Below are positions 2,073 to 24,415 of a stretch of 35,709 bases of DNA, in pieces. The notes beneath the pieces were generated by a model that made no database searches, was not told where the DNA came from, and saw only the letters and a list, made by a program, of their open reading frames with translations. The stretch is from the NCBI GenBank assembly GCA_902771785.1, contig CACXYH010000020.1, forward strand, positions 1-35,709, read 5' to 3'. The first letter of the stretch is position 1. Every line of letters starts with the position of its first letter. Made by a program: the position numbers and the translations under genes. The stretch comes from an uncultured Prevotellaceae bacterium (GTDB lineage: Bacteria > Bacteroidota > Bacteroidia > Bacteroidales > Bacteroidaceae).

Positions 2073-3002
2073 TTAATACGCTTCGCGATACTTGCTCTCA
2101 TCCTTGTCGTCGAGCATGGAGAGATAGCTCTGATAGCGGCTTTGGGCGATGTAGTGCTCGTCGAGCGCCTTGAGCACGGCGCAGCCCGGCTCATGGGTAT
2201 GCGTGCAGTTGCTGAAGCGGCAGTCCTTCGAGTAGTGGAAGATTTCGCGGAAGTAGCTGGTCAGCTCCTCGGGCTCCATGTCGAAAGTGCCGAAGCCCTT
2301 GATGCCCGGAGTGTCGATGAGGTAGCCAGGGGCCGACGATGAGGGAATGGGTATCATCTCGGAGAAGGTGGTGGTATGCATGCCGGTATTGTGGGCGTCG
2401 CTCACCTCGGCAGTACGCAAGTTGACTCCCGGCACAAGGCGGTTGATGAGCGTTGACTTGCCCACCCCGCTATTGCCGCTCAGCAGCGTTATCTTGCCCT
2501 GAAGCAACGGTTGCAGCTCTGCCACGCCATCGCCCGTAGCGGCCGACACCTGCCGGCACTCGTAGCCCACGGTTTCGTAGAGGTCGACCATCATCTGCTG
2601 CAAGCGGCGCTCATCCTCATCGAGCACGTCGCTCTTATTAAAAATAAGTATGACGGGCACGCGATAGGCCTCGGCTGAAGCCAGGAAGCGGTCGATGAAG
2701 GTTGTGCTGGTCTGCGGCTTGCTGATGGTGACCACCAGCAGCGCCTGGTCTACGTTGGCAGCAATGATATGGCTCTGCTTCGAGAGGTTGATGCTCTTGC
2801 GAATGATGTAGTTGCGACGGTCGTCGATTTCCGTAATGAAGCGGGCGTCATCTACGCTCACATGATCGCCGACGGCCACGGGATTGGTGCTCCGGATGCC
2901 ACGCAGGCGGAAGTTACCCTTTATTTTACACTCAATAAGCTGGCCATCGTCCGTCCGGACGGTGTACCAGCTTCCTGTATTCTTGACGACGAGACCTTTC
3001 AC
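2073..3002 (-). CDS. rsgA: Ribosome small subunit-dependent GTPase A
   Basis: RsgA (YjeQ) is a circularly permuted GTPase that checks late maturation of the 30S subunit. The 309-aa product shows the permuted order: an N-terminal OB-fold (about 1-70), G4 NKSD (122-125), G1 P-loop GNSGVGKST (176-184), a threonine-rich switch (about 206-212), and G3 DTPG (230-233). It ends in the zinc knuckle C261, C266, H268, C274. Length is normal for the family. The start is a GTG that directly abuts the frr stop codon (TAA then GTG). [13 protein letters not shown] matches the usual N-terminus of Bacteroidetes RsgA, so the GTG is preferred. It is probably cotranscribed and coupled with frr. Confidence 0.95.
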
Positions 3003-3563
3003 TTAGACTGTCATGATTTCCTTGTTCTTGGCCTCAATCAGGTCGTCGAGCTTCTTGATAAACTTGTCGTGCAGTTTCTGCAGCTCCAGTTCGGCATCCT
3101 TCTCGTTGTCTTCTGAGAGGCCGTCCTTGATGGCCTTCTTCAGCTTGTCCTTGACGTCGCCACGCACGTTGCGCACTTCTACCTTGGCCTTCTCAGCAAT
3201 CTTGTTGCATTGCTTCACCAAGTCGCGACGACGCTCTTCGGTAGGCTGCGGAATACCCAGACGGATAATCTCGCCGTTGTTCTCGGGCGTGATGCCTACA
3301 TCGCTGTCCATGATGGCCTTTTCTATATCCTTGATTTGCTTGCGGTCCCAAGGCTTGATAGCAATCGTACGCGCATCGGGGCAGCTCACGTTAGCAACTT
3401 GGTTCAGGGGAACCCTCGAACCGTATGACATGACTCGCACTCCGTCGAGAATGGCCACATTGGCACGGCCTGCACGGATGCGGTTCAACTCTTCTTCGAG
3501 GTACATGGCAGCCATCTCCATGCGCTCCTCGGCTCCTTGCAATGTTTCTTTTACGTCTAACAT
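3003..3563 (-). CDS. frr: Ribosome recycling factor
   Basis: RRF splits the post-termination ribosome together with EF-G. The 186-aa product has normal family length and typical features: the RAGRANVAILDGV segment (about residues 27-39), VPLNQVANVS, the IAIKPWDRKQI region and the long charged C-terminal helices. A longer in-frame reading back to 3746 exists. The ATG at 3563 (MLDVKETLQ) is preferred because it gives the family length and sits 28 bases downstream of a -7 box (3591-3598). It is the first gene of the leftward run frr-rsgA-methyltransferase-MetH-activation protein. Confidence 0.96.
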   Translation of the reverse strand: MLDVKETLQGAEERMEMAAMYLEEELNRIRAGRANVAILDGVRVMSYGSRVPLNQVANVSCPDARTIAIKPWDRKQIKDIEKAIMDSDVGITPENNGEIIRLGIPQPTEERRRDLVKQCNKIAEKAKVEVRNVRGDVKDKLKKAIKDGLSEDNEKDAELELQKLHDKFIKKLDDLIEAKNKEIMTV

Positions 3564-3590
3564 AGTTGTATAGCTATTAGTTTCTGTTGA

Positions 3591-3598
3591 CAAAAATA
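3591..3598 (-). promoter_or_regulatory. -7 promoter box of the frr operon (TATTTTTG)
   Basis: The minus strand reads TATTTTTG, matching TAnnTTTG, 28 bases before the frr ATG. No good -33 TTTG is visible at the expected spacing. Confidence 0.5.
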
Positions 3599-3723
3599 CG
3601 GCTTTTCTTTCGAATACGCAAGCATTTTGGCGTTTTTTTGTCCGTCGCTGCGCAAAATCCTTATTCTTTACACCGCAAAACCAGCATAAAAAGGAACAAA
3701 AGCAAAGAATTTTCAACAAAACC

Positions 3724-3754
3724 TTTGCTGTTTGATATATTTTCATTAACTTTG
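3724..3754 (+). promoter_or_regulatory. Promoter of the four-kinase operon
   Basis: A -33 TTTG (3724-3727) and a -7 TAACTTTG (3747-3754) are separated by 19 bases, the expected Bacteroidetes arrangement. The ATG of the first kinase follows 26 bases later. This is the only clear promoter before 15944, which supports one long transcript for the kinases and the AraC gene. Confidence 0.7.
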
Positions 3755-3780: not shown

Positions 3781-6567
3781 ATGAAATTACTGTTAGAAAA
3801 GCTGGGACTTGCAGTTACCATAGCATTCTTTAGCTTCGTATACGCATCGGCTCAGAACGACTCTTCTGAGGCCAGAAGGCAATATACCGAAAAATACCCG
3901 CTCGTCTATCTTGACACCTGGGACCTGCCGCCCTATGTCTTCCTGAACGAACGAGGAGAACCCGACGGATATACCGTCGAAGTGCTGAAGATGATGTTGC
4001 AAGAGCTGAAAATCCCCTACGTCATCAAGCTGAAGCCCACACTCGAGGCTCAGGAGGAATTCAGCAAGGGAAAAGCCGACCTGCACGTCGGCAGCGTGCT
4101 CTTGCCCCAAAAGTTTTACAAAAGCAAGAACATCATCGTACACTATACCTTCAGCGTGGCTTACCCCAAGACGATGAACATCAACATCTCATCGCTCGAA
4201 GACCTGAAGAGATATCAGTTCTACGTGCGAAGCGGCAGCCGATACTATGAAATTGTGGAAAGAGAAGGACTGGAGAACAACGCCATCAACATCAACGACA
4301 TGTCGGATGCCATCAAGAAAATCAGCGCCGACAAGAAAGGCCTCATTCTCTGGAACACGCCATCCATCAAGTGGACCTTGAAGAAGTTCAAGATTGAGAA
4401 CCTTCAGGTTGACGAAATCAAATTCCCGCAAGTAGGCTACCGCATCTATTCCCAAGACAGCGTGCTCATCAGCAAGCTCGACAGCGTCTATTCCGTGCTC
4501 AACCTGACCGAGCGGCTGGGGCCCATACAGGCAAAATGGTTCTTCCCTGAGCGCGTGCAGCCCGACAGCCGCATGCCCCTCTGGGTGTGGCTCGCCATGA
4601 TTCTGGCAGCATCCATCGCCCTGATGATGGCGGTCTACTCCTTCATCTATCGCAGAGAAGAGAAAAAAGCCATCGCCCTCACCAAGCAGCGCCGCAGCCG
4701 GCTCAGCCTCGTCCTGCAGGTGAGCGAGGTAAGAATATGGACCTTCGACGTGGCAAAGCGCATCTACACGTGGTACGACGCTGCGGGAAATCCGCAATAC
4801 CATTTCACCCCTGCCGAGGTAGCCAGCCGATGCCATCCCAGCATGTTCGACAAGATTGAAGAATGTATCGGCAAGATTGTCAGGCAAGAAGGCAAGGAAT
4901 ACTCTTTCGAGGTGAGGGAGAAGAACGTGCTCGACCCTACCGACCCCACCGACCACGACTACATGGTCGACATCTCGGTGCTCCGCTGGAAGGACAATAA
5001 GCCATCGGTCATCTTCGGCGTGAAGAGCGACCTCACCGAAGAGCGCAACAAGCAGCGATACTCCCGCCGCATGCTGGCCCGCTACCAGGCCATCTTCAAC
5101 ACCTCGATGGTCGACATGATGCTCTACGACAAGGACGGACGGGTTGCCGACATGAACGAGCGAGCCCAAAAGACCTTCAACACGACACCCGAAACCATGA
5201 AGAGTCAGGAACTGACGCTGACAAAGACGCTCGGTATAGAGGCTGACAAGCTTCCTCAGCTTGACTACTATTATGCCACAATGCTCGAAAGCAACAGTAT
5301 CAAAGAGACGAAGTACAACAAAGACGACTTCTACGAGCTGCAGCTTGTTCCTATGCGCGACAAAGGCAACCAGCTGGAGTACATCTTAGGAACGGGCAGA
5401 AACGTCAGCGAGGTGGCCAAATCGTATGGCAGCATCCTGGAAGGTGTGAAGCAGCTGAAGAAGGCCCATGAGAACATCACCAATTATATCAAGAACATCA
5501 ACTACGTGATGAAGAACGGCGGCGTACGCCTGCTTACCTATTCGCCCGACACCCACATGCTCAGCCTCTACGAGCAAGCCGACCAAGTGCAGCTCGAACT
5601 CACCCAGACGCGATGCCTCTACTTCATAAGCGAGGCATACAAGCAGAAGGCCATGAGAATACTCAACAGCATGGACAACAGAACCGACCGCCAGTTTGAA
5701 GTCGACCTGCAAACCACCATCAAATACGGACAACGAGAGCAGCTGCACCTGCTGTTCCACTTCGTGCCAAGATACGATGAGAACGGAAAGCTGCTCAACT
5801 ACTTCGGCATGTGCCGCGACGTAAGCAGCATCAAGGCCGCCGAACACCGGCTGCAATTAGAGACGACGAGGGCACAGGACACAGAGAACCTGAAAAACAA
5901 TTTCCTCAGGAACATGAGCTACGAAATCCGTACGCCGCTCAACACCATCATGGGCTTCGCAGAGCTGCTCGACATGGAGCACACCAACGAGGAGGAAGAA
6001 ATCTTCGTCAAGGAAATGAAGGAAAACTCCAGCCAGCTGCTCAGCCTCATCAACGAAATCCTGTTCCTCTCAAGGCTCGACGCCCACATGATTGAAATCA
6101 AACCGCAGCCCTCAGATTTTGCGCTCACATTCGAGGTATATTGCTATCAAGGCTGGGGCGGCAATGAGCCGGCAGGCGTCCACTTCGTGGTACATAATCC
6201 CTATGAGCACCTCGTTGTGAACATCGACGATGCCAACGTGGGGCGCATCATCGAGCAGGTGGTGGCAAACGCCGCACAACACACCACCAGCGGAAGCGTC
6301 AGCGCACGCTATGAATACGTTGCCGACAAGCTCATCATCACCATCGAAGACACAGGATGCGGCATGAACAAGGAAACACTCAGCCGTATCTATAAGCGCT
6401 TTGCCAGCAGCAAGCCTAACGGCTCAGGACTGGGCATGCCCATCTGCCAGGAGCTGGCCTCACAAATGGGTGGAAGCATCGACGTCAACTCGGAGGAAGG
6501 AAAGGGTACTACCGTATGGATTACCATCCCCTGCGAAGCTCCGACGATAGGACGAAAGATTGTGTAA
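3781..6567 (+). CDS. SBP-PAS sensor histidine kinase 1, phosphoacceptor His replaced by Tyr
   Basis: This 928-aa membrane sensor has a signal peptide (about 1-23, ending ASAQ), a periplasmic SBP_bac_3-like Venus-flytrap domain (about 35-255, with the family-like DGYTVEVLKMML), a transmembrane helix (about 266-288), three PAS-like regions (about 310-420, 432-545 and 580-690), a DHp helix pair (about 700-765) and a HATPase_c domain (about 815-925). The DHp motif reads NMSYEIRTPLN: residue 714 is Tyr where the autophosphorylated His belongs, while E, R, TPL and N are kept. In the ATPase, DTGCGM and GSGLGM are present, but the N-box reads QVVANAAQHT, with Gln in place of the first Asn. It is closest to kinase 3 in the sensor domain. 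ATG 3781 is chosen over an in-frame TTG two codons earlier. Ligand and partner are unknown. It may bind ATP but should not autophosphorylate in the usual way. Confidence 0.9.
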   Translation: MKLLLEKLGLAVTIAFFSFVYASAQNDSSEARRQYTEKYPLVYLDTWDLPPYVFLNERGEPDGYTVEVLKMMLQELKIPYVIKLKPTLEAQEEFSKGKADLHVGSVLLPQKFYKSKNIIVHYTFSVAYPKTMNINISSLEDLKRYQFYVRSGSRYYEIVEREGLENNAININDMSDAIKKISADKKGLILWNTPSIKWTLKKFKIENLQVDEIKFPQVGYRIYSQDSVLISKLDSVYSVLNLTERLGPIQAKWFFPERVQPDSRMPLWVWLAMILAASIALMMAVYSFIYRREEKKAIALTKQRRSRLSLVLQVSEVRIWTFDVAKRIYTWYDAAGNPQYHFTPAEVASRCHPSMFDKIEECIGKIVRQEGKEYSFEVREKNVLDPTDPTDHDYMVDISVLRWKDNKPSVIFGVKSDLTEERNKQRYSRRMLARYQAIFNTSMVDMMLYDKDGRVADMNERAQKTFNTTPETMKSQELTLTKTLGIEADKLPQLDYYYATMLESNSIKETKYNKDDFYELQLVPMRDKGNQLEYILGTGRNVSEVAKSYGSILEGVKQLKKAHENITNYIKNINYVMKNGGVRLLTYSPDTHMLSLYEQADQVQLELTQTRCLYFISEAYKQKAMRILNSMDNRTDRQFEVDLQTTIKYGQREQLHLLFHFVPRYDENGKLLNYFGMCRDVSSIKAAEHRLQLETTRAQDTENLKNNFLRNMSYEIRTPLNTIMGFAELLDMEHTNEEEEIFVKEMKENSSQLLSLINEILFLSRLDAHMIEIKPQPSDFALTFEVYCYQGWGGNEPAGVHFVVHNPYEHLVVNIDDANVGRIIEQVVANAAQHTTSGSVSARYEYVADKLIITIEDTGCGMNKETLSRIYKRFASSKPNGSGLGMPICQELASQMGGSIDVNSEEGKGTTVWITIPCEAPTIGRKIV

Positions 6568-6592
6568 CGAAAGAACAGAAGCAAAGAAAGTT

Positions 6593-9391
6593 ATGAATAC
6601 GACATACTTGAAAGCCCTCAGAAACATCACAGCTGTTGCATGCCTCTTGCTTGCGCAGGCGCTGTTCTTGACGGCAAACATAAGCGCTGCAAAAAACACC
6701 AAGCGCGCCTACACCAAGGAGAATCCGCTCATCGTTGGCTGCAACTGGGACTTCGCGCCTTACCAGTTCGTATCAGACAAGGACGAAGCAACTGGCTTCG
6801 ACGTCGAACTGATATCAATCATCCTGGAGAAGAACGACATTCCCTATAAGTTCGTGGTCACAGGATGGAGAAACCTCATCGACGGGCTGAACAACGAAAC
6901 AATCGACCTCATCATCACCCCACGCTCCAAAAGGCTGGCAAACGAATTCTACACCACAAGAAACGCCTACACCTACTACGAAATCAAGGCCGCAGCGCTC
7001 ACAGACACCAAGAGCATCAACTCGTATGAAGAACTGGCCGATGTCAACGGTACCATCGCACTCGAGATTTCAAGTCCTTCGCTCTACGACTTCATCGAAG
7101 AAAATCTGCCAGACCTGAAGACGGTTTCATGCTCATCGAACGATGCACTTGCGGGCGTCAGAAGCGGAGCCTTCAAGTACTTCCTTTGGGGAGAAATACC
7201 GCTCAAGAGCAAGATCAAGCAGCTGAACATTGAAAACATCAAGCTCTGCAATACCGGTATTCCTCCCGTTGAGCTGAGGGGCTTCAGCCACGACGGCACC
7301 CTCATCGAAATCATCGATGCCGAGTACACTAAGATGGAGCACAACGGCGACCTCGAGGAGCTGCACAACAAGTGGTTCCACCCGGAGCGAATCAAGCACC
7401 ATTTATCGCCAAAAGCCATCATCGGCATTTTGCTCGTGCTTGCTACGCTCATTGTGTTGATGCTTCTGGCTAATCAGTTCATGAAGAAAAACATCAGGAA
7501 GGCTGTCGTCAGAAACGCTGACCTGATGAACATGATGTCGATGGCTGTGAAGAAAGGCGACTTCATCGTCTTGCAGTACGACATCAAGAATAATCGCCTG
7601 ACCAATCAGCAGGGAAACATTCTGCCAAAGGAGGGCATCACCTTCGAGGAGTTCATCGATCGCCTGGCCGATGAAGACAAAGGGCACTTTACGCAGAACA
7701 GTAACGACATGTTTAGCAAGCAAATCACCTCGAAGGCCATCAAGATCAAATGGAACAGCGGCACCAAGGAGAAACCCAACTGGCGCCACTTCAGAGGTCA
7801 CGCCGTGCTGGAGCTCGACGATTTCGGAAGACCGCGATACACCGTCAATGCCGTCAAGGACATGACCGAAAGCGTGGGGCACCGCTACTCCGACGACGCA
7901 CTCACGCAGCAGTTCTGGAGAATGTTCGACACATCGCTCATCGCCATGTCGTTCTACGACAAAGACGGCAAGCTGCTCGACCTGAACAGGAAGATGAAGG
8001 AAATCTGCGGCATCACGGAAGATAACCTCGAGTTTTTCAGAGTGTCGCGCTTGCAGGATGTGCCCATCTTCGCCAAAGACTTCGACCCCACGAGCCACGA
8101 TGTCATGCATTGCTGCCAGCACATGCATTATCCGGAGATGGGCATCGACAGGTACCTCGAGCTCCGCATCCGTCCCATCTTCGACGTCAACGACGAACTG
8201 CTCTACCACACCGTCACGGCACGCGACATTACCGACGAGCGCAACATGTACCTCACGCAAATCAACAACGAGCACGAACTGCAGAAAGCCAATGATGCAG
8301 TCACACAATATGAAAACGAGCTGCGCTACCTGCTGGAGAAAAGCGACACCTATGTGTGGACCTTCAACCTTATCACACAAGAAATCACTTTCTCACGCAC
8401 GTTGTCACACGTCGTCTTTGTAAAAGCCAAAAACGATTACCTGAGCTGGATGCCGGAGGAAGACCAAAAGGAAGCCGAACAAAATATGGTGGAGACCATC
8501 ATGCAAGGCAAACCTTTCAATGCCACCCACCACTTCAACTATACACCCGTCACACCCGCCACCTCTTGGTTTGTGCTCAGCGGCCTTCCCTCTTTCGACG
8601 AGAAAGGAAACATGACGGGCTACTTCGGCATAGCCCGCGACATCACCAAACTGATGGATACTCAGGAGAAACTGAAGCAAGAAACGGTACGTGCCGATGA
8701 ATCGGGCAAGCTGAAGAGCGTGTTCCTGGCCAACATGACCCACGAAATCCGCACCCCGCTGAACTCCATCGTGGGCTTTGCCGACTTACTGCAGATGGTA
8801 GAATCGCCCGAAGACAAGCACGAGTTCATTCGAATCATCCGCAACAACTGCGACATGCTCTTGCGCCTCATCGACGATATCATCGAGGCATCGAACATGA
8901 ACCAGGGGCCACTCTACATCGAGATCACCGACGTAGACTTTGCACAAGTGTTCAACGATATCTGCCAGACGCTGGCACAGCGCGTCCAGGAGCCTGGCGT
9001 TGCCTTCATCGTCGACAACCCCTACAACAGCTTCCCCACTCGGCTCGACAAGGGACGCATGCAGCAAGTCATCACCAATTTCGTAACCAACGCCGTCAAA
9101 TACACCCACGAAGGCCACATCAAGGTGGGCTATCGCTATGAGAACGGCGGCATCTATATGTATTGCGAAGATACCGGAGCAGGCATTCCCAAGGACAAGC
9201 AGGCCTCGGTCTTCGAACGCTTTGTCAAGCTGAACGACTTCATACAAGGCACCGGTCTCGGACTCTCCATCTGCAAATCGATAGCCGACCGCTGCAACGG
9301 AAAGATTGGAGTCGACAGCGAAGGCGAAGGCAAGGGTTCAACCTTCTGGATCTGGATTCCCTGCGAACGAAAAGAAAACAACCAAGCCTAA
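6593..9391 (+). CDS. SBP-PAS sensor histidine kinase 2, canonical His
   Basis: This 932-aa sensor starts at ATG 6593, 25 bases after kinase 1. It has a signal-type N-terminus, a periplasmic SBP_bac_3-like domain (about 45-265; GFDVELISII, then DLIITPRSKR), a transmembrane helix (about 274-296), three PAS-like regions (about 315-425, 440-565, 580-695), a DHp and a HATPase_c domain. The DHp carries His717 in NMTHEIRTPLN. The ATPase has a full N-box (NFVTNAVKYT), G1 DTGAGI, F-box VFERF and G2 GTGLGL, so it should be an active kinase. There is no receiver or HPt domain. It pairs in sequence with kinase 4 rather than with its neighbours. By inference it could trans-phosphorylate a response regulator encoded elsewhere. 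Confidence 0.9.
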   Translation: MNTTYLKALRNITAVACLLLAQALFLTANISAAKNTKRAYTKENPLIVGCNWDFAPYQFVSDKDEATGFDVELISIILEKNDIPYKFVVTGWRNLIDGLNNETIDLIITPRSKRLANEFYTTRNAYTYYEIKAAALTDTKSINSYEELADVNGTIALEISSPSLYDFIEENLPDLKTVSCSSNDALAGVRSGAFKYFLWGEIPLKSKIKQLNIENIKLCNTGIPPVELRGFSHDGTLIEIIDAEYTKMEHNGDLEELHNKWFHPERIKHHLSPKAIIGILLVLATLIVLMLLANQFMKKNIRKAVVRNADLMNMMSMAVKKGDFIVLQYDIKNNRLTNQQGNILPKEGITFEEFIDRLADEDKGHFTQNSNDMFSKQITSKAIKIKWNSGTKEKPNWRHFRGHAVLELDDFGRPRYTVNAVKDMTESVGHRYSDDALTQQFWRMFDTSLIAMSFYDKDGKLLDLNRKMKEICGITEDNLEFFRVSRLQDVPIFAKDFDPTSHDVMHCCQHMHYPEMGIDRYLELRIRPIFDVNDELLYHTVTARDITDERNMYLTQINNEHELQKANDAVTQYENELRYLLEKSDTYVWTFNLITQEITFSRTLSHVVFVKAKNDYLSWMPEEDQKEAEQNMVETIMQGKPFNATHHFNYTPVTPATSWFVLSGLPSFDEKGNMTGYFGIARDITKLMDTQEKLKQETVRADESGKLKSVFLANMTHEIRTPLNSIVGFADLLQMVESPEDKHEFIRIIRNNCDMLLRLIDDIIEASNMNQGPLYIEITDVDFAQVFNDICQTLAQRVQEPGVAFIVDNPYNSFPTRLDKGRMQQVITNFVTNAVKYTHEGHIKVGYRYENGGIYMYCEDTGAGIPKDKQASVFERFVKLNDFIQGTGLGLSICKSIADRCNGKIGVDSEGEGKGSTFWIWIPCERKENNQA

Positions 9392-9393
9392 CA

Positions 9394-12213
9394 ATGAACC
9401 GTAAAAAATTGACGACAGTCATCCTGTGTCTGTCGGCAGTCCTGAACATCACGGCACAGGACACGCTCAAAAGCAGAGCCTACACACAGGAGCGCCCCCT
9501 CATCTACGAGGGAGCACAGGACCTATGGCCCTATAGTTTCCTGAACGACAACGGACAGCCCGACGGCTACAACATCGACCTGATGAAGCTGATGCTGGGG
9601 CGGCTGGGCATTCCCTATGTCATCAAGCTCAAGCCACGCATGGCGGCCTTCAGAGACATGAAAGCAGAAAAGTCGGACCTGATGATCGGACTTACTGCCG
9701 GATTCCACGAACAGTATGGCTACTACAGCGAGAACTCCGTCACGCTGTTCACGCAGAGCATCCTGTCTCCCAAAAGCTCGCCTACAAAAATCCACAACTT
9801 CCGCGACCTGGCCACACACAAGGTCTACGTCAACGACAGCAGCCTGTGCCACCACCTCATGGTCGACTACGGCTGGGGCAACAACGCCATTCCCACCAGC
9901 ACCATTGGCGAGACCATCAAACAGATGAGCACCGAAGAGAAGGGCGAACTGGTGTGGAACACGCTCTCGCTGAAATGGATGCTCAGGAAGTTCCAGATAG
10001 ACAACCTCGAGATAACGCCCGTCGACATGCCCCACGGCGAATATAAGTTCATGTCGGGCGACAAGCATCTCATCAGCCAGCTCGACAGCGTCTTCGTACT
10101 CCTTAACTCAACCGACAAGCTCTTGCCGCTGCAAAACAAATGGTTCTACCCCGAGCGGCAGGAGGAGCACACACCGGTATGGGTATGGTATGCAGCAGCA
10201 GGCATTGGCGCCCTGCTGCTCGTCATGCTCATCTTCATACTGGCCTACCGGCATAAAGCCACACGCATCACCGCCGACAACATCAAGCGCAACCGACGAC
10301 TGGCTCTCATCCTCGAAACGAGCGGCGTGCGCATCTGGACCTACGACCTGAGAGCTCGCCAGTTCACCTGGCGCAACGAGTACGGACAGCCAGCCTACGT
10401 CTACAGCCGCGAAGAGTTTGCCACACGCTACAGCCCCGACGACTTCGAACGGCTGAAAGATGCCATCAAGCAACTGGCCGAGCTACCCCCATGCGAGGAT
10501 GGTGCAGAAGAACAGACCATCACACTCGACATCAAAGCCAAGGACGCGCGCGAAGACGGCGACACCGAGATGCACGACTTCGTCATCGCCCTCTCGGTGC
10601 TGCACCGCAACCAGCACGGCAAACCGACGGTCATCATCGGCACCAAGAAAGACGTCACGGAGAAACGCCGACGCGAACAGAAGGCCGAAGAAGAGGCCAT
10701 GGACTACTGGGCCGTGTTCTACACACCGATGGTGGCCATCCTGTTCTTCGACAAGAACAACGTGCTCACCAACATCAACTGGAAGGGCTGCGACCTGTTC
10801 GAGTGCGACCGCGACGAGCTCATTGAGGAACAAGTCACCCTGAAAGACTTCTTCGAAATCGACATCACGGAAGAGGAAGCCAACAACTTCTACGCCACAA
10901 TGATTGTCGACATGACTCGCATACCCAGCAGCCAGCGCAAGGTAAAGTCAATCAAATGCGAGGGAAAGCTCATCGTCGACTACCGATTTATGACAGCCTA
11001 CGACGAGAACCACGAGCTGCTGGGAACCTTTGCTATCTGTTCCGACTCGCACTACAAGACGCTCCTGCAGGAAAAGCAGAAAGAATGCCTGCAACGCCTT
11101 CAGGACATCAAGGCAAAGGAAGAAGAATACATCGGCACCATCGACGAGTTCATCAGCGGCGGACTGTCGCGCATCGTCAGCTACTCGCCCATCTCTCACG
11201 TGCTCACCATCTTCAAAGGTGTCAACAAGGTGCAGATGAAACTGACGCAGACGCGACTCATGACGCTCATCGACAGCCGCATGAGCAACAAGGCCATGCG
11301 CTTCGTCAGCAGCATGGACAGTCTGACGCTCACCCCCATCACGGGCGACTTGCGCACCATCCTGCGCATCAAGGGCCAGCGCATACTTCACGTGGACTTC
11401 CACCTGATTCCGCAGCTCGACCGGAACAAGAACGTTACTGAGTATATAGGAATACTGCGCGACATCTCGGAAGAGAAAGACGTCGAACAGCAGCTGGCCC
11501 GACTTGAAGCCAAAGCACAGGAGATTGAGGACACCAAGACGCTCTTCGTCAGAAACATGATGCAGGAAATCACAACGCCCCTGAGCAAAGTGACCGACAA
11601 TGCTGCCCTGCTCAATGCAAACAAAAACGACGAGACCGACATGGCCACCATCAACACCATCATGGAGAATGCCGACCAGCTGACCCACATCATCAACAAC
11701 ATTCTCTACCTGTCGCGCCTGGAAGCCCACATGGTAGAGATAACGAAGAGGCCCACCGACCTGGCCGAAATCTTCGAAAGCTACTGCCGCAACGGATGGG
11801 AGAAGCACATGAACAGCGACGTGAACTACATTGTCGACAATCCCTACAAGGAACTTGTGGTCGACATTGACGGCGAGCACCTGGGCTACCTCATCTCACA
11901 GCTGACGCTGAATGCCGCCCAACACACGCAAAAGGGCTACATCCGCACACGCTACGACTACGTAGGCCGACGACTCACCATCTCGGTGGAAGATACTGGC
12001 GAGGGCATTGACTCTGAAAAGCTCGAAGAGCTCAACCGCAACTCTGGCGATGAAGACCACACCAGCAGCGGACTGGGACTGACCATCTGCAAAGAACTGG
12101 CCCTGCAGATGGGAGGCTCCATGGAAATAAGCTCCGAGCAAGGACTGGGCACAACCATCTGGGTGCTGCTTCCCTGCCATGCCGACGTCATCAAGCGAAA
12201 GAAGACCGTCTAA
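9394..12213 (+). CDS. SBP-PAS sensor histidine kinase 3, phosphoacceptor His replaced by Gln
   Basis: This 939-aa relative of kinase 1 starts only two bases after the kinase 2 stop. It has a signal peptide (MNRKKLTTVILCLSAVLNITAQ region), an SBP_bac_3-like domain (about 35-255; DGYNIDLMKLML, IPYVIKLKP as in kinase 1), a transmembrane helix (about 260-285) and three PAS-like regions. The DHp reads NMMQEITTPLS: residue 724 is Gln instead of His and the usual Arg is Thr. The ATPase keeps DTGEGI and SSGLGL but has QLTLNAAQHT for the N-box, and the F-box region (about LNRNSGDEDH) has no recognisable FERF motif. It is the most degenerate of the four, yet the reading frame is intact over its whole length, which argues for a retained function rather than decay. 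Confidence 0.9.
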   Translation: MNRKKLTTVILCLSAVLNITAQDTLKSRAYTQERPLIYEGAQDLWPYSFLNDNGQPDGYNIDLMKLMLGRLGIPYVIKLKPRMAAFRDMKAEKSDLMIGLTAGFHEQYGYYSENSVTLFTQSILSPKSSPTKIHNFRDLATHKVYVNDSSLCHHLMVDYGWGNNAIPTSTIGETIKQMSTEEKGELVWNTLSLKWMLRKFQIDNLEITPVDMPHGEYKFMSGDKHLISQLDSVFVLLNSTDKLLPLQNKWFYPERQEEHTPVWVWYAAAGIGALLLVMLIFILAYRHKATRITADNIKRNRRLALILETSGVRIWTYDLRARQFTWRNEYGQPAYVYSREEFATRYSPDDFERLKDAIKQLAELPPCEDGAEEQTITLDIKAKDAREDGDTEMHDFVIALSVLHRNQHGKPTVIIGTKKDVTEKRRREQKAEEEAMDYWAVFYTPMVAILFFDKNNVLTNINWKGCDLFECDRDELIEEQVTLKDFFEIDITEEEANNFYATMIVDMTRIPSSQRKVKSIKCEGKLIVDYRFMTAYDENHELLGTFAICSDSHYKTLLQEKQKECLQRLQDIKAKEEEYIGTIDEFISGGLSRIVSYSPISHVLTIFKGVNKVQMKLTQTRLMTLIDSRMSNKAMRFVSSMDSLTLTPITGDLRTILRIKGQRILHVDFHLIPQLDRNKNVTEYIGILRDISEEKDVEQQLARLEAKAQEIEDTKTLFVRNMMQEITTPLSKVTDNAALLNANKNDETDMATINTIMENADQLTHIINNILYLSRLEAHMVEITKRPTDLAEIFESYCRNGWEKHMNSDVNYIVDNPYKELVVDIDGEHLGYLISQLTLNAAQHTQKGYIRTRYDYVGRRLTISVEDTGEGIDSEKLEELNRNSGDEDHTSSGLGLTICKELALQMGGSMEISSEQGLGTTIWVLLPCHADVIKRKKTV

Positions 12214-12240
12214 AGGAAACTAAAAAAACAACCGTTAAAC

Positions 12241-15054
12241 ATGAAGAAGACCTATTATATAATATATAAGGTGGCAACAGCACTCCTCCTGCTGTTTGCC
12301 CTCGGCCTGACAGCCTTGCCAGCCTCCGGGCAGAACAGGGGAAGGCAATATGACGCCGACCATCCCCTGACCATCATTGGCGACTGGGACAAGCCGCCCT
12401 ACGAATTTCTGAACGACCATGGAGTGCCCGCAGGAACCAACATCGACCTGATGAAGCGCATTGCCCAGAAAATGGGCATCCCCTGCCGCTTCATCCTGAA
12501 GGAATGGAGCAGCGCGATGAAGGCCTTCGAACGCGGCGATGCCGACCTCATCCTGGCCAATGTGCGCCGGTACCGTTCGCCGGCCTACCACAGCACCCAA
12601 AACATCATAAACTACGACCGCATCTGCGCCGCCACCCTGGCCGACACCACCGGCCATACTGTGTCGAACAAGGAGCTCATCAGCGGAGGCTTGGTGCTGA
12701 AACCTGGCGACTACACAAGCATGTTCTTCCGCGACGTCACCCCCGAAGAGGCCGCCAACATAGAATACCAGTCACCCAAAGTGGCATTACAGGGTGTTAT
12801 AGCCGGCGACTACAAGTATTTCGTGTGGGGCGAGGAACCGCTGAAAAGGAAAATCAAGGAGCTGAACCTGGAAGGTCTGGAGCTCAAGGATGTCAGCCTC
12901 CCCGTCAGCGAAATCCATATCATCGGACACGACAAGGACCTCATCTACGAAATCGACGACATCTACTCGCGACTGAAACAGAGCGGCGAGGTGCAGCGCA
13001 TCAACGACCAGTGGTTGCACCCCGAACGCATCAAAGAGACATGGAACTTCTGGCCCTTCGTCTACATATTCATAGGCCTGATGCTGCTCACAGCCATCTT
13101 CTACGGCATGACACGCATGGCCAGGAAACACCTGCGCCACGCCACCCGCAACTCTCGCGACCTGTACGACATGATGTACAAGGCCCTGCACATGGGCAAC
13201 TTCCACATCGTGGAATACGACATCAAGCGCGACCTCTTCACCAACAGCTACGGAATGCCCATTCTCCCGAGCGAAGGCATCAGCCTGAAAGAGTTCACTG
13301 AGCACATACACCCCCATGAAGCACAGGAATTCACCCAAAAGATGAACATGCTGCTCAGCGGACGCGAGCGAAAGTTTGAACTGAGGAAGCGGTGGAAAGC
13401 CTTCGGCGAAGACGACCGTTGGCTCAACCTGGAAGGCCACGCCATCGTGGAGCTGGATGCCGACGGGCAGCCCGCCTTCGTCATCAATGCGGTCAACGAC
13501 CTGACAAAGAACATGGAGGACGACCGCGACACCCGCGAGATGGAACAGCTGTTCCACACGCTATCGAACCTGCCTTTCGTAGCTCAGTCGTTCTACGACA
13601 AGGATGGCTGGCTGATAAGCCTCAACGATGCCATGAAGCAGCTGTGCGGCATCAGCAGCGAAAACCCGGAAACCGAGCGCTACTGGAAGAGCCTCAACCT
13701 CTTCGATACACCTCAATTCCACGGCATCTTCACGCCCGAGGACCGCGAGGACATACTCATGTGCCAGCACATGAAATACCCAGAAATCAACGTCGACCGC
13801 TACATTGAGTTCCAAATCCATCCGCTGTTCAGCGCCACCGGCGACATCTACTCCTATTTCGTGTCAGCCATCGACATCAGCGACGTGCGCCAACGCCACT
13901 TGAAAGTAAACCGGCTGAAACGCGAAATACAACAGACCACAGCCAGAAACGAGCTCCACGAGCAATGGCTGAAGTTCCTGACCAGACAGGGAAACACATT
14001 CCTCTGGCACAGCGACGTGAGACAGCAGACGGCCTACTTCTACCGCTCGCTCGAGGCAAAAGAAAAAGACGAATACGTCGAGCTGCCCTTCGCCACACAC
14101 ATCTCCTACATGCCCGAATCGGAGCGCACGCAGGCCATGGAACTGTACAACAACCCCAAGCCCTACGACAGCATTCAGCACTTCACCAACACCATCTTCG
14201 ACACCGGCGAGTCGTGGTATCACATGACCGGACAACCCATGTTCGACGACCAAGGCAACTTCATCGGGCATCGAGGCTATTCGCTCGACATCACCCGCAA
14301 AATGAGTCTGAAGAGCCGGCAGGCCGAGAAGGAGATGCTGGTGAACGACAGCGCACGGCTGAAGAGCAGCTTCATGGCGTCGATGACCCACGAGCTGCGC
14401 ACGCCACTCAACTCCATCGTAGGCTTCACCGACGTGCTCAGGGTTGTCGACGACAGCACCGAGCGCGGCGAGTACCTGCGCATCATCCGAAACAACTGCG
14501 ACATGCTGCAGCGACTCATCAGCGACATTCTCGTGGCATCGTCGCTCCACGACGGACCTACCTCGATAGAGCCCGCCGACATAGAGTTCTCCAAGGCCTT
14601 CGACGACCTCTGCCTCACCATGCAGCAGCGCGTGGAGGAAGCAGGCCTTGAGTTCCAGAAGGACAATCCTTACGAGACTTTCTACACGACGCTCGACATG
14701 GATCGCATCGTCCAGGTCGTCACCAACTTCGTGACCAATGCCGTGAAGTTCACCAAGCAGGGGCACATCAAGCTGGGCTATACCTACACTCAACACGGCC
14801 TGCGCATCTACTGCGAAGACACCGGTGCCGGCATTCCCAAGGACAAGCAGGAAGTCATCTTCGAACGCTTCGTCAAGCTCGACGAGTTTGTGCAGGGCAC
14901 CGGCATGGGTCTCAACATCTGCAAGAGCATTGCCGAGCGCTGCGGAGGCAAGATTGGCGTCATCAGCGAGGGGCCTGACACAGGTTCTACTTTCTGGATA
15001 TGGATACCCTGCGAGCGAAAGCTGTCGCCCGTCACATCAACAAGCAATCAATAA
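12241..15054 (+). CDS. SBP-PAS sensor histidine kinase 4, canonical His
   Basis: This 937-aa relative of kinase 2 begins 27 bases after kinase 3. It has a signal-type N-terminus (hydrophobic about 10-30, ending near SGQ), an SBP_bac_3-like domain (about 40-260; GTNIDLMKRIAQKMGI), a transmembrane helix (about 270-292), three PAS-like regions, a DHp with His717 in SMTHELRTPLN, and a HATPase_c domain with N-box NFVTNAVKFT, DTGAGI, IFERF and GTGMGL. All catalytic boxes are intact and the His has the same residue number as in kinase 2, so the two are recent-looking paralogues. No receiver domain follows. The gene is 17 bases ahead of the AraC-type regulator and almost certainly cotranscribed with it. 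Confidence 0.9.
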   Translation: MKKTYYIIYKVATALLLLFALGLTALPASGQNRGRQYDADHPLTIIGDWDKPPYEFLNDHGVPAGTNIDLMKRIAQKMGIPCRFILKEWSSAMKAFERGDADLILANVRRYRSPAYHSTQNIINYDRICAATLADTTGHTVSNKELISGGLVLKPGDYTSMFFRDVTPEEAANIEYQSPKVALQGVIAGDYKYFVWGEEPLKRKIKELNLEGLELKDVSLPVSEIHIIGHDKDLIYEIDDIYSRLKQSGEVQRINDQWLHPERIKETWNFWPFVYIFIGLMLLTAIFYGMTRMARKHLRHATRNSRDLYDMMYKALHMGNFHIVEYDIKRDLFTNSYGMPILPSEGISLKEFTEHIHPHEAQEFTQKMNMLLSGRERKFELRKRWKAFGEDDRWLNLEGHAIVELDADGQPAFVINAVNDLTKNMEDDRDTREMEQLFHTLSNLPFVAQSFYDKDGWLISLNDAMKQLCGISSENPETERYWKSLNLFDTPQFHGIFTPEDREDILMCQHMKYPEINVDRYIEFQIHPLFSATGDIYSYFVSAIDISDVRQRHLKVNRLKREIQQTTARNELHEQWLKFLTRQGNTFLWHSDVRQQTAYFYRSLEAKEKDEYVELPFATHISYMPESERTQAMELYNNPKPYDSIQHFTNTIFDTGESWYHMTGQPMFDDQGNFIGHRGYSLDITRKMSLKSRQAEKEMLVNDSARLKSSFMASMTHELRTPLNSIVGFTDVLRVVDDSTERGEYLRIIRNNCDMLQRLISDILVASSLHDGPTSIEPADIEFSKAFDDLCLTMQQRVEEAGLEFQKDNPYETFYTTLDMDRIVQVVTNFVTNAVKFTKQGHIKLGYTYTQHGLRIYCEDTGAGIPKDKQEVIFERFVKLDEFVQGTGMGLNICKSIAERCGGKIGVISEGPDTGSTFWIWIPCERKLSPVTSTSNQ

Positions 15055-15071: not shown

Positions 15072-15944
15072 ATGCAGAAGAGCAAATACATGTTAGCAAG
15101 CGAACGCGACGAGCTGTGGGGGCTCACCGTAACCACCATCGGCTACGAAGAGATCGGCCCCGGCGACACCTACCCCACCCGCGGTCATGCCGACGGCTAC
15201 TACTTTGAAATAGACAAAGGCCGCGAGTTCCGCGACGAATACCAGTTGCTCTACATCACTGAAGGCCAAGGTGTGTTCCACAGCCACACCGTCAAAGAGG
15301 CCACACTCCACGAAGGCGACCTGTTCCTGCTTTTCCCCGGCGAATGGCACAGCTACCACCCGCTGCCGCAACGTGGCTGGAAAAGCTACTGGATTGGATT
15401 CCGCGGACGCAACATCGACGACCGTGTCAGGGCCGGCTTCCTACTTCCCACCAAGCCCATCTATCACGTGGGCTTCAGCGATGCCATCGTCAGGCTCTAC
15501 CGCAAAGCCTTCGACACCGCAATAGAAGAGGCAGCCTACTCGCAACAGCTCATGGCTGGCATCGTCAACCACCTCATCGGCATGATGTACTCGCTGGAAC
15601 GCAACATCGAGCTGAGCCGTAACCAGCAGCATGTCGACATGGTGAACCGGGCCCGTCTGCGCATTCGCGAGTCGCTCGAAAGCTCACTCACCATCCAGCA
15701 GGTGGCCGAAGAGATGGGTGTCAGCTACAGCAACTTCCGCAAACTGTTCAAGGAGCACACGGGCCTTTCGCCCGCCACCTATCAGCAAGACCTGCGTCTG
15801 CAGCGGGCCAAAGAACTGCTCACCACGACCGATGCCAGCATCAAGGAGATTGCCTACCGGCTGAACTTCGACTCGCCCGACTACTTTTCGGCCAAATTCA
15901 AGCAGAAGACGGGACGCAAACCCAGCGAGTTAAGAAGCAAATAG
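15072..15944 (+). CDS. AraC-family transcriptional regulator with cupin-like sensor
   Basis: This 290-aa regulator has an N-terminal AraC_binding/cupin-like domain (about 52-98: DEYQLLYITEGQG, then LHEGDLFLLFPGEWHSY) and a C-terminal pair of helix-turn-helix motifs (about 207-226 and 257-277, with the family-typical IKEIAYRLNFDSPDYFSAKFK). It has no receiver domain, so it does not look like a direct phosphotransfer target of the kinases. It more likely binds a small molecule, often a sugar in this family. ATG 15072 is used because it gives a normal AraC N-terminus, although an upstream in-frame ATG exists at 15000 inside kinase 4. It is the last gene of the kinase operon. Its targets are unknown; the rhamnose-type operon at 21.5 kb is one candidate. 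Its last 15 bases overlap the convergent nhaD gene. Confidence 0.9.
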   Translation: MQKSKYMLASERDELWGLTVTTIGYEEIGPGDTYPTRGHADGYYFEIDKGREFRDEYQLLYITEGQGVFHSHTVKEATLHEGDLFLLFPGEWHSYHPLPQRGWKSYWIGFRGRNIDDRVRAGFLLPTKPIYHVGFSDAIVRLYRKAFDTAIEEAAYSQQLMAGIVNHLIGMMYSLERNIELSRNQQHVDMVNRARLRIRESLESSLTIQQVAEEMGVSYSNFRKLFKEHTGLSPATYQQDLRLQRAKELLTTTDASIKEIAYRLNFDSPDYFSAKFKQKTGRKPSELRSK

Positions 15945-21449: not shown

Positions 21450-21457
21450 TAACTTTG
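21450..21457 (+). promoter_or_regulatory. -7 promoter box of the rhamnose-type operon (TAACTTTG)
   Basis: ATAGTAACTTTGCAG lies 36 bases before the kinase ATG. Just upstream, CAAAAAATT occurs twice as a direct repeat 21 bases apart (21396-21404 and 21417-21425), a spacing suited to an AraC-type activator. The sequence is A-rich, so chance is possible. Confidence 0.6.
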
Positions 21458-21493
21458 CAGACAATAAATCAGCTAATCAAACTAAAACTATAT

Positions 21494-22975
21494 ATGAACA
21501 ACAAAAAGTATTTCTTTGCCGTTGACCTTGGTGCCACCAGCGGACGCACTATCATCGGCAACATAGAAAACGAGAAATTCGAACTCGAGGAAATCACTCG
21601 TTTCCCCAATAATCTCATCGAGCAAGGCGGACACTATTACTGGGACATCTACGCCCTGTACTTCGAAATCATTCGCGGACTGAAAGAGGTAGCAAAGCGC
21701 GGACTCGAAATCACCTCCATCGGTATCGACACGTGGGGTGTCGATTTCGTGTTTATTGGCGACGACGGAGCTATCCTGCGCAATCCTCGCTCCTATCGCG
21801 ACCCCATCACATTCGACGCAATGGACGACTACCTGAAGCACGTCATCTCGCGACGTGAAGTCTACGACGTGACGGGTATCCAGTTCATGAACTTCAACTC
21901 GATTTTCCAGCTGTATGCCATGAAGCGAGAAGGCAACTCCGCCTTGAAGCATGCATCGAAAATCCTGTTTATGCCCGATGCCCTGTCGTGGATGCTGACA
22001 GGCAACGAAGTGTGCGAATACACGATAGCATCGACTTCGCAGCTGCTCGACCCTCGCAGCAAGCAGCTCGACGAACGCCTGCTGGCTTCGCTGGGTCTGA
22101 CGCGTTCCAAGTTTGGCAAAATGGTTAACCCAGGCACCCTGATTGGCGTGCTCACCGATGAGGTGCAGCGGCTGACGGGATTAGGCCCTGTGCCTGTGAT
22201 TGCCGTTGCTGGCCACGACACGGGTTCGGCTGTTGCTGCCGTTCCAGCCAAGGACGAAAAGTTTGCCTACCTTTCAAGCGGCACATGGAGCCTCATGGGC
22301 ATTGAGACGAAGGATGCCATCATCAGCGACCTGAGCTATGAGCGCAACTTCACCAACGAAGGCGGCATTGAGGGCACCACACGCTTCCTGAAGAACATCT
22401 GCGGCATGTGGCTCTACGAGCGTTGCCGCCTGGAGTGGCCCGAGGATGTGCGCAAGCTATCGCATCCGGAACTGCAGGGTTCGGCCATGAAGGTCGAAGG
22501 TTTCCGTTCGATCATCAACCCCGACGACCCCTTGTTTGCTGCCCCGGCCTCGATGATTGGTGCCATTCAGAAGTACTGCCGCGACACCAATCAGTATGTG
22601 CCGCAGACACCGGCCGAAATTTGCCGCTGCATCTTCGACTCGCTGGCCCTGCGCTATCGTCAGGTGTTCCAGTGGATGCAAGAATTTGCGCCCTTCCGCC
22701 TGGAGGTGCTTCATATCATCGGTGGCGGCTCGCTCAACAAATATCTCAATCAGTTTACGGCCAATGCGACGGGTGCAACCATCCTGGCAGGACCGCAAGA
22801 AGGAACCGCTATCGGCAACATCATGCTGCAGGCCAAGGCTGCCCACTTAGTAGGCGACATCTGGGAGATGCGCCACATCATCGCCAACTCGATTGAACTG
22901 GTGAAATACGAACCCAAAGACAAGGCCGCATGGGATGCTGCCTACGACAAGTATCTAAACATTATTAATAAATAA
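21494..22975 (+). CDS. rhaB: Rhamnulokinase (FGGY family)
   Basis: The 493-aa product matches E. coli RhaB along its length: DLGATSGR (11-18) for phosphate binding, IDTWGVDFVFI (79-88), YRDP (101-104), GIQFMNFNSIFQL (128-140), the catalytic-base region AGHDTGSAV with D242, SSGTWSLMG and IIGGGSLN. It phosphorylates L-rhamnulose at O1. L-fuculokinase is a close alternative in this subfamily, but the resemblance to RhaB and the presence of a RhaD-type aldolase nearby favour rhamnulose. ATG 21494 is selected because it places the N-terminal ATPase strand at the start and follows the promoter box. It is the first of three plus-strand genes, 9 bases before the isomerase gene. Confidence 0.9.
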   Translation: MNNKKYFFAVDLGATSGRTIIGNIENEKFELEEITRFPNNLIEQGGHYYWDIYALYFEIIRGLKEVAKRGLEITSIGIDTWGVDFVFIGDDGAILRNPRSYRDPITFDAMDDYLKHVISRREVYDVTGIQFMNFNSIFQLYAMKREGNSALKHASKILFMPDALSWMLTGNEVCEYTIASTSQLLDPRSKQLDERLLASLGLTRSKFGKMVNPGTLIGVLTDEVQRLTGLGPVPVIAVAGHDTGSAVAAVPAKDEKFAYLSSGTWSLMGIETKDAIISDLSYERNFTNEGGIEGTTRFLKNICGMWLYERCRLEWPEDVRKLSHPELQGSAMKVEGFRSIINPDDPLFAAPASMIGAIQKYCRDTNQYVPQTPAEICRCIFDSLALRYRQVFQWMQEFAPFRLEVLHIIGGGSLNKYLNQFTANATGATILAGPQEGTAIGNIMLQAKAAHLVGDIWEMRHIIANSIELVKYEPKDKAAWDAAYDKYLNIINK

Positions 22976-22984
22976 AAAGAAATC

Positions 22985-24415
22985 ATGGCAAAACCATTAG
23001 TTGAAACAAAAGCAAGGGTGGGTGTGTTCTCCATCGCATTAGGAGCCTACCTGCCACAGTTCCCCCAACTCGTTCCTGAATTTGAAGCTCAGTATGCTGC
23101 CTTCAAGAAAACCCTGCCCGACACCATTGAGATCATCGATGGTGGCATGGTGACCACCAAGGAGCAGTCAATGCAGGCCGGCGACAAGTTCCGCGCTGCC
23201 GACGTTGACCTCGTTATCCTCCAGATGCTGACCTATTGCACCAGCTACAACATGCTGCCTGCCGTGCGCGACCTTGACGTGCCCGTGGTGATTGTAAACG
23301 TGCAGAAGAAGCTGGCTCCCGACTATGCCAAGACCGACATACCTATCTGGCTGGGCGAGCTTTATGCCTGCGGTGCCATCGGCGAGATGGTGGCCGACCT
23401 GAACCGTGCCGGAAAGCGTTCGGCGGTGATTACGGGCGTTGTCGAGGGTGGCGATCCCGAAGTGCAGCATGAAATCGAAGACTGGTGCCGTGCTGCACAG
23501 GTACGCCGTCGTTTCCGCGACACGAACATTGCACAGATTGGACGTCCCTACCCCGGTATGATGGACCTCTACATCGACGAGACCAACCTGTACCACCGCA
23601 TGTTCGTCTACACCAAGCAGTTCGACTGGGAACAGATGTGGGCTATTGCCGACAACATCACCGATGAGGATGCCATCCGCGCCAAGGCTCAGGACATTCT
23701 CGACACCTTCGAAATTGAAGGCGGCGGTACCATCGAGAAAGTTTGGGACATGGCTAAGTATGTAGTAGCCTTCGAGCAGTGGGTGAAGGACGAGCAGCTG
23801 GGCATGATTGCCTCGCACTATGCTGGTTTTGCACAGGGCGTGGCAGGCAAGCTCGACTCGATGCTCATCCCCGCTTTCTCCATGCTCATCAAGCAGCACA
23901 CCGCCTGCGCTGTGGAAGGCGATATGAAGGTGGCCATGGCCATGTCTATCCTGAAGACCATTTCCGGAACTGGCACGTTGGCTGAGATGTACTCGATTGA
24001 CTTCCCGAAGGACATCTGCATCATCGGCCACTCTGGTTCTGGCGACTTCGACATCTCACAGGCCCACAAGCCCACGATGAAGATTGTGCCCGTGTTCCAC
24101 GGCAAGACTGGCGGCGGCTATCTGACGCAGTTCTATCCTCCCACAGGTCCTGTGACCTATCTGGCTATTACGCAGGACAAGAACGGTGTGTTCAAGTTCG
24201 TGGCTGCCGAGGGTGTCAACGAAGAAGGCCCCATCTTCATGTTCGGCGACACCAACATGCGCACGAAGTTCTCGTTGCCTTGCCGCGAGTTCGTCAACAA
24301 GTGGAGCGAGGCCGGTCCTACTCACCACATGGCAGCTGCCGTAGGTCATCACATCGACACCATCCTGAAGGTGGCCAAGATTCTGAACATCGAGTGCGAT
24401 GTTGTGTGCAGATAA
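22985..24415 (+). CDS. L-fucose/L-arabinose isomerase family protein
   Basis: The 476-aa product belongs to the AraA/FucI fold family of Mn-dependent aldose-ketose isomerases, not to the TIM-barrel L-rhamnose isomerases. Comparison by eye with E. coli AraA suggests that all four metal ligands are kept: E311 in AVEGDMK, E334 in LAEMYS, H349 in IIGHSG and H447/H448 in GPTHHMA. The N-terminal half (RVGVFSIALGAYLPQFP onward) is the Rossmann-like domain. It sits between a rhamnulokinase and a sugar transporter, so it probably performs the sugar isomerisation of this pathway. Whether the substrate is L-rhamnose, L-fucose or another sugar is inference from neighbours. It is shorter than FucI (about 590 aa) and near AraA (500 aa). 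Confidence 0.85.
   Translation: MAKPLVETKARVGVFSIALGAYLPQFPQLVPEFEAQYAAFKKTLPDTIEIIDGGMVTTKEQSMQAGDKFRAADVDLVILQMLTYCTSYNMLPAVRDLDVPVVIVNVQKKLAPDYAKTDIPIWLGELYACGAIGEMVADLNRAGKRSAVITGVVEGGDPEVQHEIEDWCRAAQVRRRFRDTNIAQIGRPYPGMMDLYIDETNLYHRMFVYTKQFDWEQMWAIADNITDEDAIRAKAQDILDTFEIEGGGTIEKVWDMAKYVVAFEQWVKDEQLGMIASHYAGFAQGVAGKLDSMLIPAFSMLIKQHTACAVEGDMKVAMAMSILKTISGTGTLAEMYSIDFPKDICIIGHSGSGDFDISQAHKPTMKIVPVFHGKTGGGYLTQFYPPTGPVTYLAITQDKNGVFKFVAAEGVNEEGPIFMFGDTNMRTKFSLPCREFVNKWSEAGPTHHMAAAVGHHIDTILKVAKILNIECDVVCR

Follow-up and report, generated by a model that had tools for sequence, protein, structure and literature searches.

Four tandem sensor kinases in a Prevotellaceae genome belong to a conserved family of alternating putative pseudokinases and canonical histidine kinases

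Histidine kinases are typically homodimers. Heterodimers of two different histidine kinases are called rare in PMC12675982. In group A Streptococcus, FasB and FasC are encoded by adjacent sensor-kinase genes and form heterodimers and no homodimers in two-hybrid experiments; FasC is a proposed pseudokinase that retains its phosphoacceptor histidine and whose kinase domain is dispensable (PMC12675982). RetS and GacS of Pseudomonas also form a heterodimer of different sensor kinases, in which one inhibits the other (PMC12675982). The Caulobacter protein DivL carries a tyrosine at the phosphoacceptor position, has little or no kinase activity and exerts its effect by way of a partner kinase and of the receiver DivK (PMC4211667), while in Corynebacterium a pseudokinase variant of ChrS alters the signaling of the paralogous HrrS (PMC9491836). 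Here we analyze four tandem sensor-kinase genes from an uncultured gut bacterium of the Prevotellaceae (assembly GCA_902771785.1, contig CACXYH010000020.1, positions 1 to 35,709; this whole stretch of 35,709 nucleotides (nt) is referred to as the window). The kinases alternate between two classes, class A (kinases 1 and 3), which lacks the phosphoacceptor histidine, and class B (kinases 2 and 4), which keeps it. The comparative sequence evidence presented below leads us to favor, with moderate confidence, a role for A as a non-catalytic partner that is dedicated to B.

All four genes lie on the forward strand and encode kinase 1 (class A1 pseudokinase, 928 amino acids (aa), positions 3781..6567), kinase 2 (class B1, 932 aa, 6593..9391), kinase 3 (class A3 pseudokinase, 939 aa, 9394..12213) and kinase 4 (class B3, 937 aa, 12241..15054). 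The gaps that separate them are 25, 2 and 27 nt long, and a single transcript for the four kinases is therefore likely. Each frame translates without interruption, in agreement with a sequence-only reading of this DNA that had described four intact frames of about 930 aa. The motifs given there for the dimerization and histidine phosphotransfer (DHp) domain were likewise recovered: MSYEIRTPL in kinase 1 (Tyr714, codon 5920..5922), MTHEIRTPL in kinase 2 (His717, codon 8741..8743), MMQEITTPL in kinase 3 (Gln724, codon 11563..11565) and MTHELRTPL in kinase 4 (His717, codon 14389..14391), where the forward-strand codon positions are computed from the frame starts. In the catalytic and ATP-binding (CA) domain, kinases 2 and 4 contain all of the N, G1, F and G2 boxes and are assigned as canonical histidine kinases from their frames, motifs and Pfam matches. 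Kinases 1 and 3 have a glutamine in place of the first N-box asparagine (N1), as had been noted, and retain the second asparagine (N2) and the D-x-G-x-G box. The accompanying claim that both have a weak or absent F-box applies to kinase 3, which lacks the box, and has to be withdrawn for kinase 1, in which it is nearly normal (Tyr/Phe). Frame, motifs and Pfam matches also underlie the assignments of kinases 1 and 3, with the predicted structure and the clade as further evidence for kinase 1.

SBP_bac_3, HisKA and HATPase_c, as well as PAS models, score above the Pfam cut-offs in kinases 1-4. The chains stop just past the CA domain, and no match to a receiver (Response_reg) or to a histidine phosphotransfer (HPt) domain was found in them at E<=0.001, which distinguishes them from hybrid sensors such as BvgS/EvgS or HTCS, and from RcsD-like phosphotransferases with their C-terminal HPt domain, respectively. 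In a single-chain structure prediction (mean predicted local distance difference test score (pLDDT) 80.1, predicted template modeling score (pTM) 0.33), kinase 1 comprises a periplasmic SBP_bac_3 domain with a periplasmic-binding-protein fold, a helix in the membrane region, three PAS-like segments (delineated from secondary structure), DHp helices at residues 682-730 and 736-767, and the CA domain. Foldseek searches matched the kinase end of this model to YycG (4zki_A, target-normalized template modeling (TM) score 0.88) and to DivL (DivL-normalized TM 0.78 to 4q20_B and 0.68 to 4q20_A), and its front part to the kinase sensor domain 3h7m (TM 0.81). The A and B proteins are homologous along their whole length. 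Identity is 35% between kinases 1 and 3 and 39% between kinases 2 and 4, as compared to 22-25% for the cross pairs in the long alignments, indicating that the array arose by duplication of an A-B pair.

With a profile built from kinases 1 and 3, matches at E<=1e-60 were obtained in 45 of 100 genomes of the same genus, counting that of the window. The match in G008 spans just part of the periplasmic domain; with this genome left out, 44 of the 100 are referred to as A-B genomes. In the profile searches, only the 3 or 8 top-ranking kinase candidates of each genome were scored, and several genomes are incomplete. Kinase cores were classified from 60 stretches of same-genus genomes and the window and, together with 20 stretches from a family-wide search, yielded 194 cores, of which 91 are A and 103 are B or B-like (outgroups included). 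We checked whether homologues of kinases 1 and 3 usually carry the histidine, and they do not: the A cores have Tyr (56), Gln (16), His (8), Phe (7) or, once each, Glu, Gly, Lys and Leu at this position, leaving 83 of 91 without histidine, and the eight that have it all lack N1. Histidine occupies the same position in all but one of the 103 B or B-like cores (102), and the core that deviates, L086_4, is off-family; once 15 outgroup or off-family rows are dropped, both histidine and N1 are found in 88/88 paired-family B cores. The contrast between 83/91 and 88/88 shows that the phosphoacceptor pattern is not due to chance. N1 is lost in 86 of the 91 A cores, and the combination of histidine with both N-box asparagines occurs in 0/91 A cores versus 101/103 B or B-like cores. 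The earlier designation of kinases 1 and 3 as pseudokinases is borne out in that they are members of one conserved clade with degenerate catalytic residues. Among the 20 stretches fetched in the family search, A-type loci were found only in the window's genus and in genus g195, and at the level of the order the profile matched none of 294 other genomes at E<=1e-100, with the 3 top candidates scored in each and only 3 of the genomes belonging to the window's family. A wider contig scan returned 80 loci, mostly partial matches to other kinases, whereas L185-L188, which stem from Prevotella or Prevotellaceae records, match over most of the query.

The A-B and A-B-A-B orders, which the sequence-only reading had suggested looking for in related genomes, are widespread. 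Among 58 stretches with a scored core, the order is AB in 30, ABAB in 22, ABABAB in one and A alone in two, with B, BB and ABB represented once each (frames that fuse two kinases lie within the BB and ABB rows). For 85 of 89 unfused A genes, the next same-strand kinase within 600 nt downstream is a B, at a median A-to-B gap of 6 nt in longest-open-reading-frame calls. Three of the four A genes without a following B (L053_5, L034_12 and L089_1) have less than 2.4 kb of contig downstream, L034_12 being followed by a cut B frame. The fourth, L129_8 of genus g195, is part of a broken pair (L129:7347-11182, reverse strand) in which A is split over two frames and the adjacent B consists of part of a CA domain only; judged by these frames, the pair is breaking down together, which we count in favor of A as a partner of B. 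The partners are also matched by subclass, with 46 A1-B1, 21 short-short and 16 A3-B3 pairs, and the two mismatches are artefacts of a fusion frame and of an over-long frame call. In the loci from the wider contig scan, the order is A-B-A in L185, where the stretch ends, A-B-A-B in L186 and L188, and A-B in L187, which may not be independent of G087:C58. In two genomes, one continuous frame runs from a short B into the complete A pseudokinase of the next pair: L055_5 (1583 aa, L055:6442-11190, reverse strand) and L052_0 (1378 aa, cut at the contig start, L052:2-4135, forward strand). These frames could be natural fusions or assembly errors.

The subclasses of A differ in the residues that they have lost. 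In A1 (48 rows) the phosphoacceptor position is occupied by Tyr (36), Phe (7) or His (5), the F-box is mostly retained, N1 is lost in 43 and N2 is kept in 40. A3 (19 rows) has Gln in 16, has lost the F-box and the first G2 glycine in all 19, and keeps N2 in 18. Short A (24 rows), defined as frames below 780 aa, two fragments among them, plus one over-long frame, has Tyr in 20, N1 in none and N2 in 5 (lost in 19), and an aspartate replaces the third G2 glycine in 19; in complete members the match to the A profile does not start before about position 265, so that the periplasmic domain is missing. As far as these residues tell, each subclass has eroded its ATP site in its own way. The threonine of the E-x-x-T stretch that follows the phosphoacceptor is kept in 46/48 A1, 23/24 short A and 13/19 A3 rows. 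Three early-branching A rows (Tyr, Phe and Phe), grouped with modest support (83/62), include two that retain N1, a residue also present in three other A1 cores. Since these first-branching rows lack the histidine while two of them keep N1, parsimony implies that the histidine was probably lost before N1, and the sequences suggest an order of loss in which the histidine went first and the N-box next, followed by the ATP lid in A3.

In the main tree, built from 44 hand-chosen rows, A is a single clade (100/100), B is a clade as well, and A+B are set apart from eight solitary histidine-bearing kinases (98/88); A and B would be sisters if the root falls among these eight. The stem of A has accumulated 0.89 changes per column as compared to 0.28 for B. 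Whole-protein ratios of nonsynonymous to synonymous substitution rates (dN/dS) are 0.08-0.17 in nine A comparisons and 0.07-0.17 in seven of eight B comparisons (one is undefined); these 17 were hand-picked from 73 comparisons, and the values are rough, with dS above 1 in many. The ratios in A are far below 1 and resemble those in B, from which we conclude that A is maintained by purifying selection.

When the array is set beside the described systems, it resembles FasB-FasC in consisting of pairs of two different, adjacent sensor-kinase genes (here A then B in 85/89). It differs in that A loses the histidine and B keeps everything, whereas FasC keeps its histidine, and in that one to three pairs stand in a row, whereas Fas comprises a single pair that shares an operon with its response regulator (PMC12675982). 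Kinase 1 shares with DivL the tyrosine and, in its model, the DHp-CA fold. DivL is reportedly a single gene unlinked to CckA, whereas A is a periplasmic-domain sensor that adjoins its own B in several paralogous copies and, in A3, mostly carries Gln. In the main tree described above, A clusters with the B proteins of its own genomes, which suggests an origin independent of DivL. RetS is said to be a hybrid kinase unlinked to gacS, and to our knowledge RetS-GacS does not occur in repeated arrays. The ChrS-HrrS case is similar in that a kinase-dead sensor changes the signaling of a paralogous kinase, but the ChrS variant is a laboratory-evolved frameshift rather than a natural family, and heterodimers are described for the native forms and not for the truncated one (PMC9491836). 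The solitary kinases of related genera have homologous cores with the histidine present, and 2 of 10 scanned share the SBP-PAS-HK (histidine kinase) plan; unlike B, they have no A partner in the fetched stretch, and seven g190 forms have a C-terminal receiver. Pairs of a kinase and a pseudokinase (FasB-FasC, DivL-CckA) are already known, and the new element here is that the array is repeated and is conserved across part of a genus. Targeted searches of one literature collection found no tandemly repeated kinase/pseudokinase family with matched live partners, and no paper combining Prevotella, histidine kinase and pseudokinase. That many relatives conserve the dead-then-live pairing suggests that such bacterial sensors act as asymmetric pairs. 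A family of natural origin, with one member of each pair almost invariably dead, live members matched to it and histidine-bearing outgroups, would provide a test case for asymmetric kinase sensing, and it would let one test which chain is phosphorylated and how paralogous pairs keep from mixing or make use of it.

Kinases 1 and 3 are full-length sensors that have lost the phosphoacceptor histidine and part of the ATP site, and in the mechanism that we propose each A would partner the canonical B encoded directly downstream. The two chains would most likely join via their DHp helices to form an A-B heterodimer. The sequence-only reading had likewise proposed that kinases 1 and 3 modulate kinases 2 and 4 or heterodimerize with them, in an array that would integrate several ligands. 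To this dimer A would bring periplasmic ligand-binding and PAS domains as a second, separately evolving input, and control would run from A to B, with A setting the conformation of B. As the sole subunit with a phosphorylatable histidine, B would autophosphorylate and hand the phosphate on; the ATP sites of A3 and short A are degenerate, and if they are unable to bind ATP, B must autophosphorylate in cis. In a more specific version, a Prevotella-group lineage would monitor its environment through obligate kinase/pseudokinase heterodimers, in which an ancestral duplication froze one subunit in a non-catalytic state and the pair was then multiplied to A-B-A-B(-A-B), possibly with one shared stand-alone receiver. 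Its subunits may mix between pairs, a prospect raised by the B-A fusion frames that join neighboring pairs in two genomes. We regard this version as possible rather than probable.

An A-B contact is plausible from the sequences. In a subclass-stratified analysis of covariation between A and B columns, 10 DHp-DHp cells fell within the top 200, versus 0-8 (mean 3.7) in 20 within-subclass shuffles; it supersedes an unstratified analysis that was driven partly by subclass differences. The mirror-tree correlation of A with B is 0.79 overall, and the within-class shuffle maximum is 0.56. Several observations nevertheless speak against the partnership. The eight A cores with a histidine are one, and a second is that PAS-DHp and CA-DHp cells are also raised in the covariation analysis, the DHp-DHp signal itself being modest. 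In addition, mirror-tree correlations for cognate partners (0.60 and 0.65) exceed those for non-cognate partners of the same locus (0.46 and 0.53) by a small amount; two comparisons of 6 loci gave results in either direction. The mirror-tree correlation mostly reflects shared ancestry and was set aside as evidence of partnership.

Decay of kinases 1 and 3 into pseudogenes, or sequencing error, would fit the faster stem of A, the g195 pair that is breaking down and the stops found inside some profile matches, although such stops occur in A and B alike. This explanation is hardly credible, since the frames of kinases 1 and 3 are free of internal stops, dN/dS is far below 1 as it is in B, and non-histidine codons recur in 83/91 A cores across many genomes; the conserved codons and the dN/dS values refute recent decay or error as a general account. 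An active role for A, in which its CA domain binds ATP and phosphorylates the histidine of B in trans so that donor and acceptor functions are split, draws on the retention of N2 (40/48 A1, 18/19 A3) and of the D-x-G-x-G box, and the authors of the FasB-FasC work propose that one kinase domain phosphorylates the histidine of its partner (PMC12675982). We nonetheless judge it quite improbable, given that N1 is lost in 86/91 A cores, that A3 is without the F-box and the first G2 glycine, that N2 is lost in 19/24 short A, and that the sites of B are complete in themselves.

More weight, though still on the unlikely side, attaches to the idea that A forms its own homodimer and behaves like DivL, binding, sensing or dephosphorylating a phosphorylated receiver and reaching B only via that receiver. 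The residues of the E-x-x-T stretch are usually needed for phosphatase activity, and both the E and the T are mostly kept in A. Because of this retention, which for the T is nearly complete in A1 and short A (46/48 and 23/24), these two subclasses may have a phosphatase or DivL-like receiver-sensing role. Kinase 1 moreover shares its His-to-Tyr change with DivL, a binder of the receiver DivK (PMC4211667). However, the T is kept in just 13/19 A3, a DivL-like homodimer leaves the A-then-B adjacency and the subclass matching unexplained by itself, and the candidate receiver discussed below is missing from some A-B genomes. The heterodimeric partnership of A with B accordingly remains the interpretation that we prefer.

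No response regulator is encoded within the window's array and none recurs as a neighbor of the arrays, apart from an OmpR-type regulator that, along with a kinase, lies upstream at a few loci. The window's genome contains 22 receiver matches, and the best candidate for the acceptor of the B phosphate is an unlinked stand-alone receiver of 118 aa (G000:C46:6431-6784), an assignment that we offer as tentative and consider doubtful. A stand-alone gene for this receiver occurs in 39 of the 44 A-B genomes versus none of the 56 others (G008 among them) and, in further genomes, in 4/4 with A-B (one in a 386-aa frame) versus 0/9. Solitary g190 hybrid kinases, which branch beside A+B (92/89), carry a C-terminal receiver to which the 118-aa protein is the closest of the genome's 22 receiver loci in 7/7 cases, a hint that B-like cores phosphorylate such receivers. 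An arabinofuranosidase-like gene, identified by eye, lies near the 118-aa receiver in 12 of 14 fetched stretches.

Other observations count against this acceptor. The 118-aa receiver is absent from 5/44 A-B genomes, including G034 (93% complete) and G066 (88%), and from all four g195 genomes, which have A3-B3 type pairs. Of 27 family genomes that belong neither to the genus nor to g195, 18 contain a match within a 119-167 aa frame, eight of the 18 at 50-58% identity; such receivers therefore predate A-B and are not bound to its presence. Kinase 2 (K2) is the best core match of 12/12 outgroup queries, hybrid or not, so that the match is unspecific. Co-occurrence was set aside as proof of a link to the receiver, since ancestry explains it equally well: a marker tree that includes 80 of the 100 (30 A-B genomes, 50 without) yields only one independent well-supported contrast. 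A control regulator, C61, is present in 92 of the 100 genomes. We also dropped the notion that the receiver was split from a hybrid ancestor, as 3/7 g190 genomes (G554, G582 and G595) have their own stand-alone-sized match and similar receivers are widespread without A-B. Two further receiver proteins are confined to A-B genomes to the same degree as the 118-aa receiver, which also weakens co-occurrence as evidence. L152 (G000:C7:44777-45142) is an unrelated stand-alone receiver of 122 aa found in 29/100 genomes, all with A-B, and at 96-99% identity between genomes it is far more conserved than the 118-aa receiver. L179 (G000:C9:91935-93203) joins a cytoplasmic kinase core to a receiver in 423 aa and is found in 40/100 genomes, 40/40 of them with A-B, a distribution that is confounded by ancestry.

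Downstream of the array, a gene identified by family matches as encoding an AraC-family regulator (15072..15944, forward strand) has no receiver-type family among its 25 best matches listed, and it possibly controls nearby sugar genes rather than serving as a target of the kinases. It was rejected as a specific partner of the array because a homologue is present in 47/100 genus genomes, including genomes without A-B. Positions 21455-25780 of the window encode a rhamnulokinase-like FGGY kinase, which scores slightly below the cut-off of TIGR02627, as well as a protein with a weak match to isomerases and an MFS transporter. In 11 loci, a sugar-kinase gene judged by eye to be a rhamnulokinase is located downstream of the array, and the presence of a rhamnulokinase-like gene near the arrays hints at deoxysugar metabolism nearby. 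Just before kinase 1, at about 3747-3754, the window reads TAACTTTG, with TTTG ~19 nt upstream (located by eye); by the same visual comparison, TAACTTTG and TTTG resemble the Bacteroidetes -7/-33 promoter. Upstream, on the reverse strand at 2073-3746, lie divergent genes for an RsgA-like GTPase and ribosome recycling factor (frr), which recur in 18 and 12 loci, respectively.

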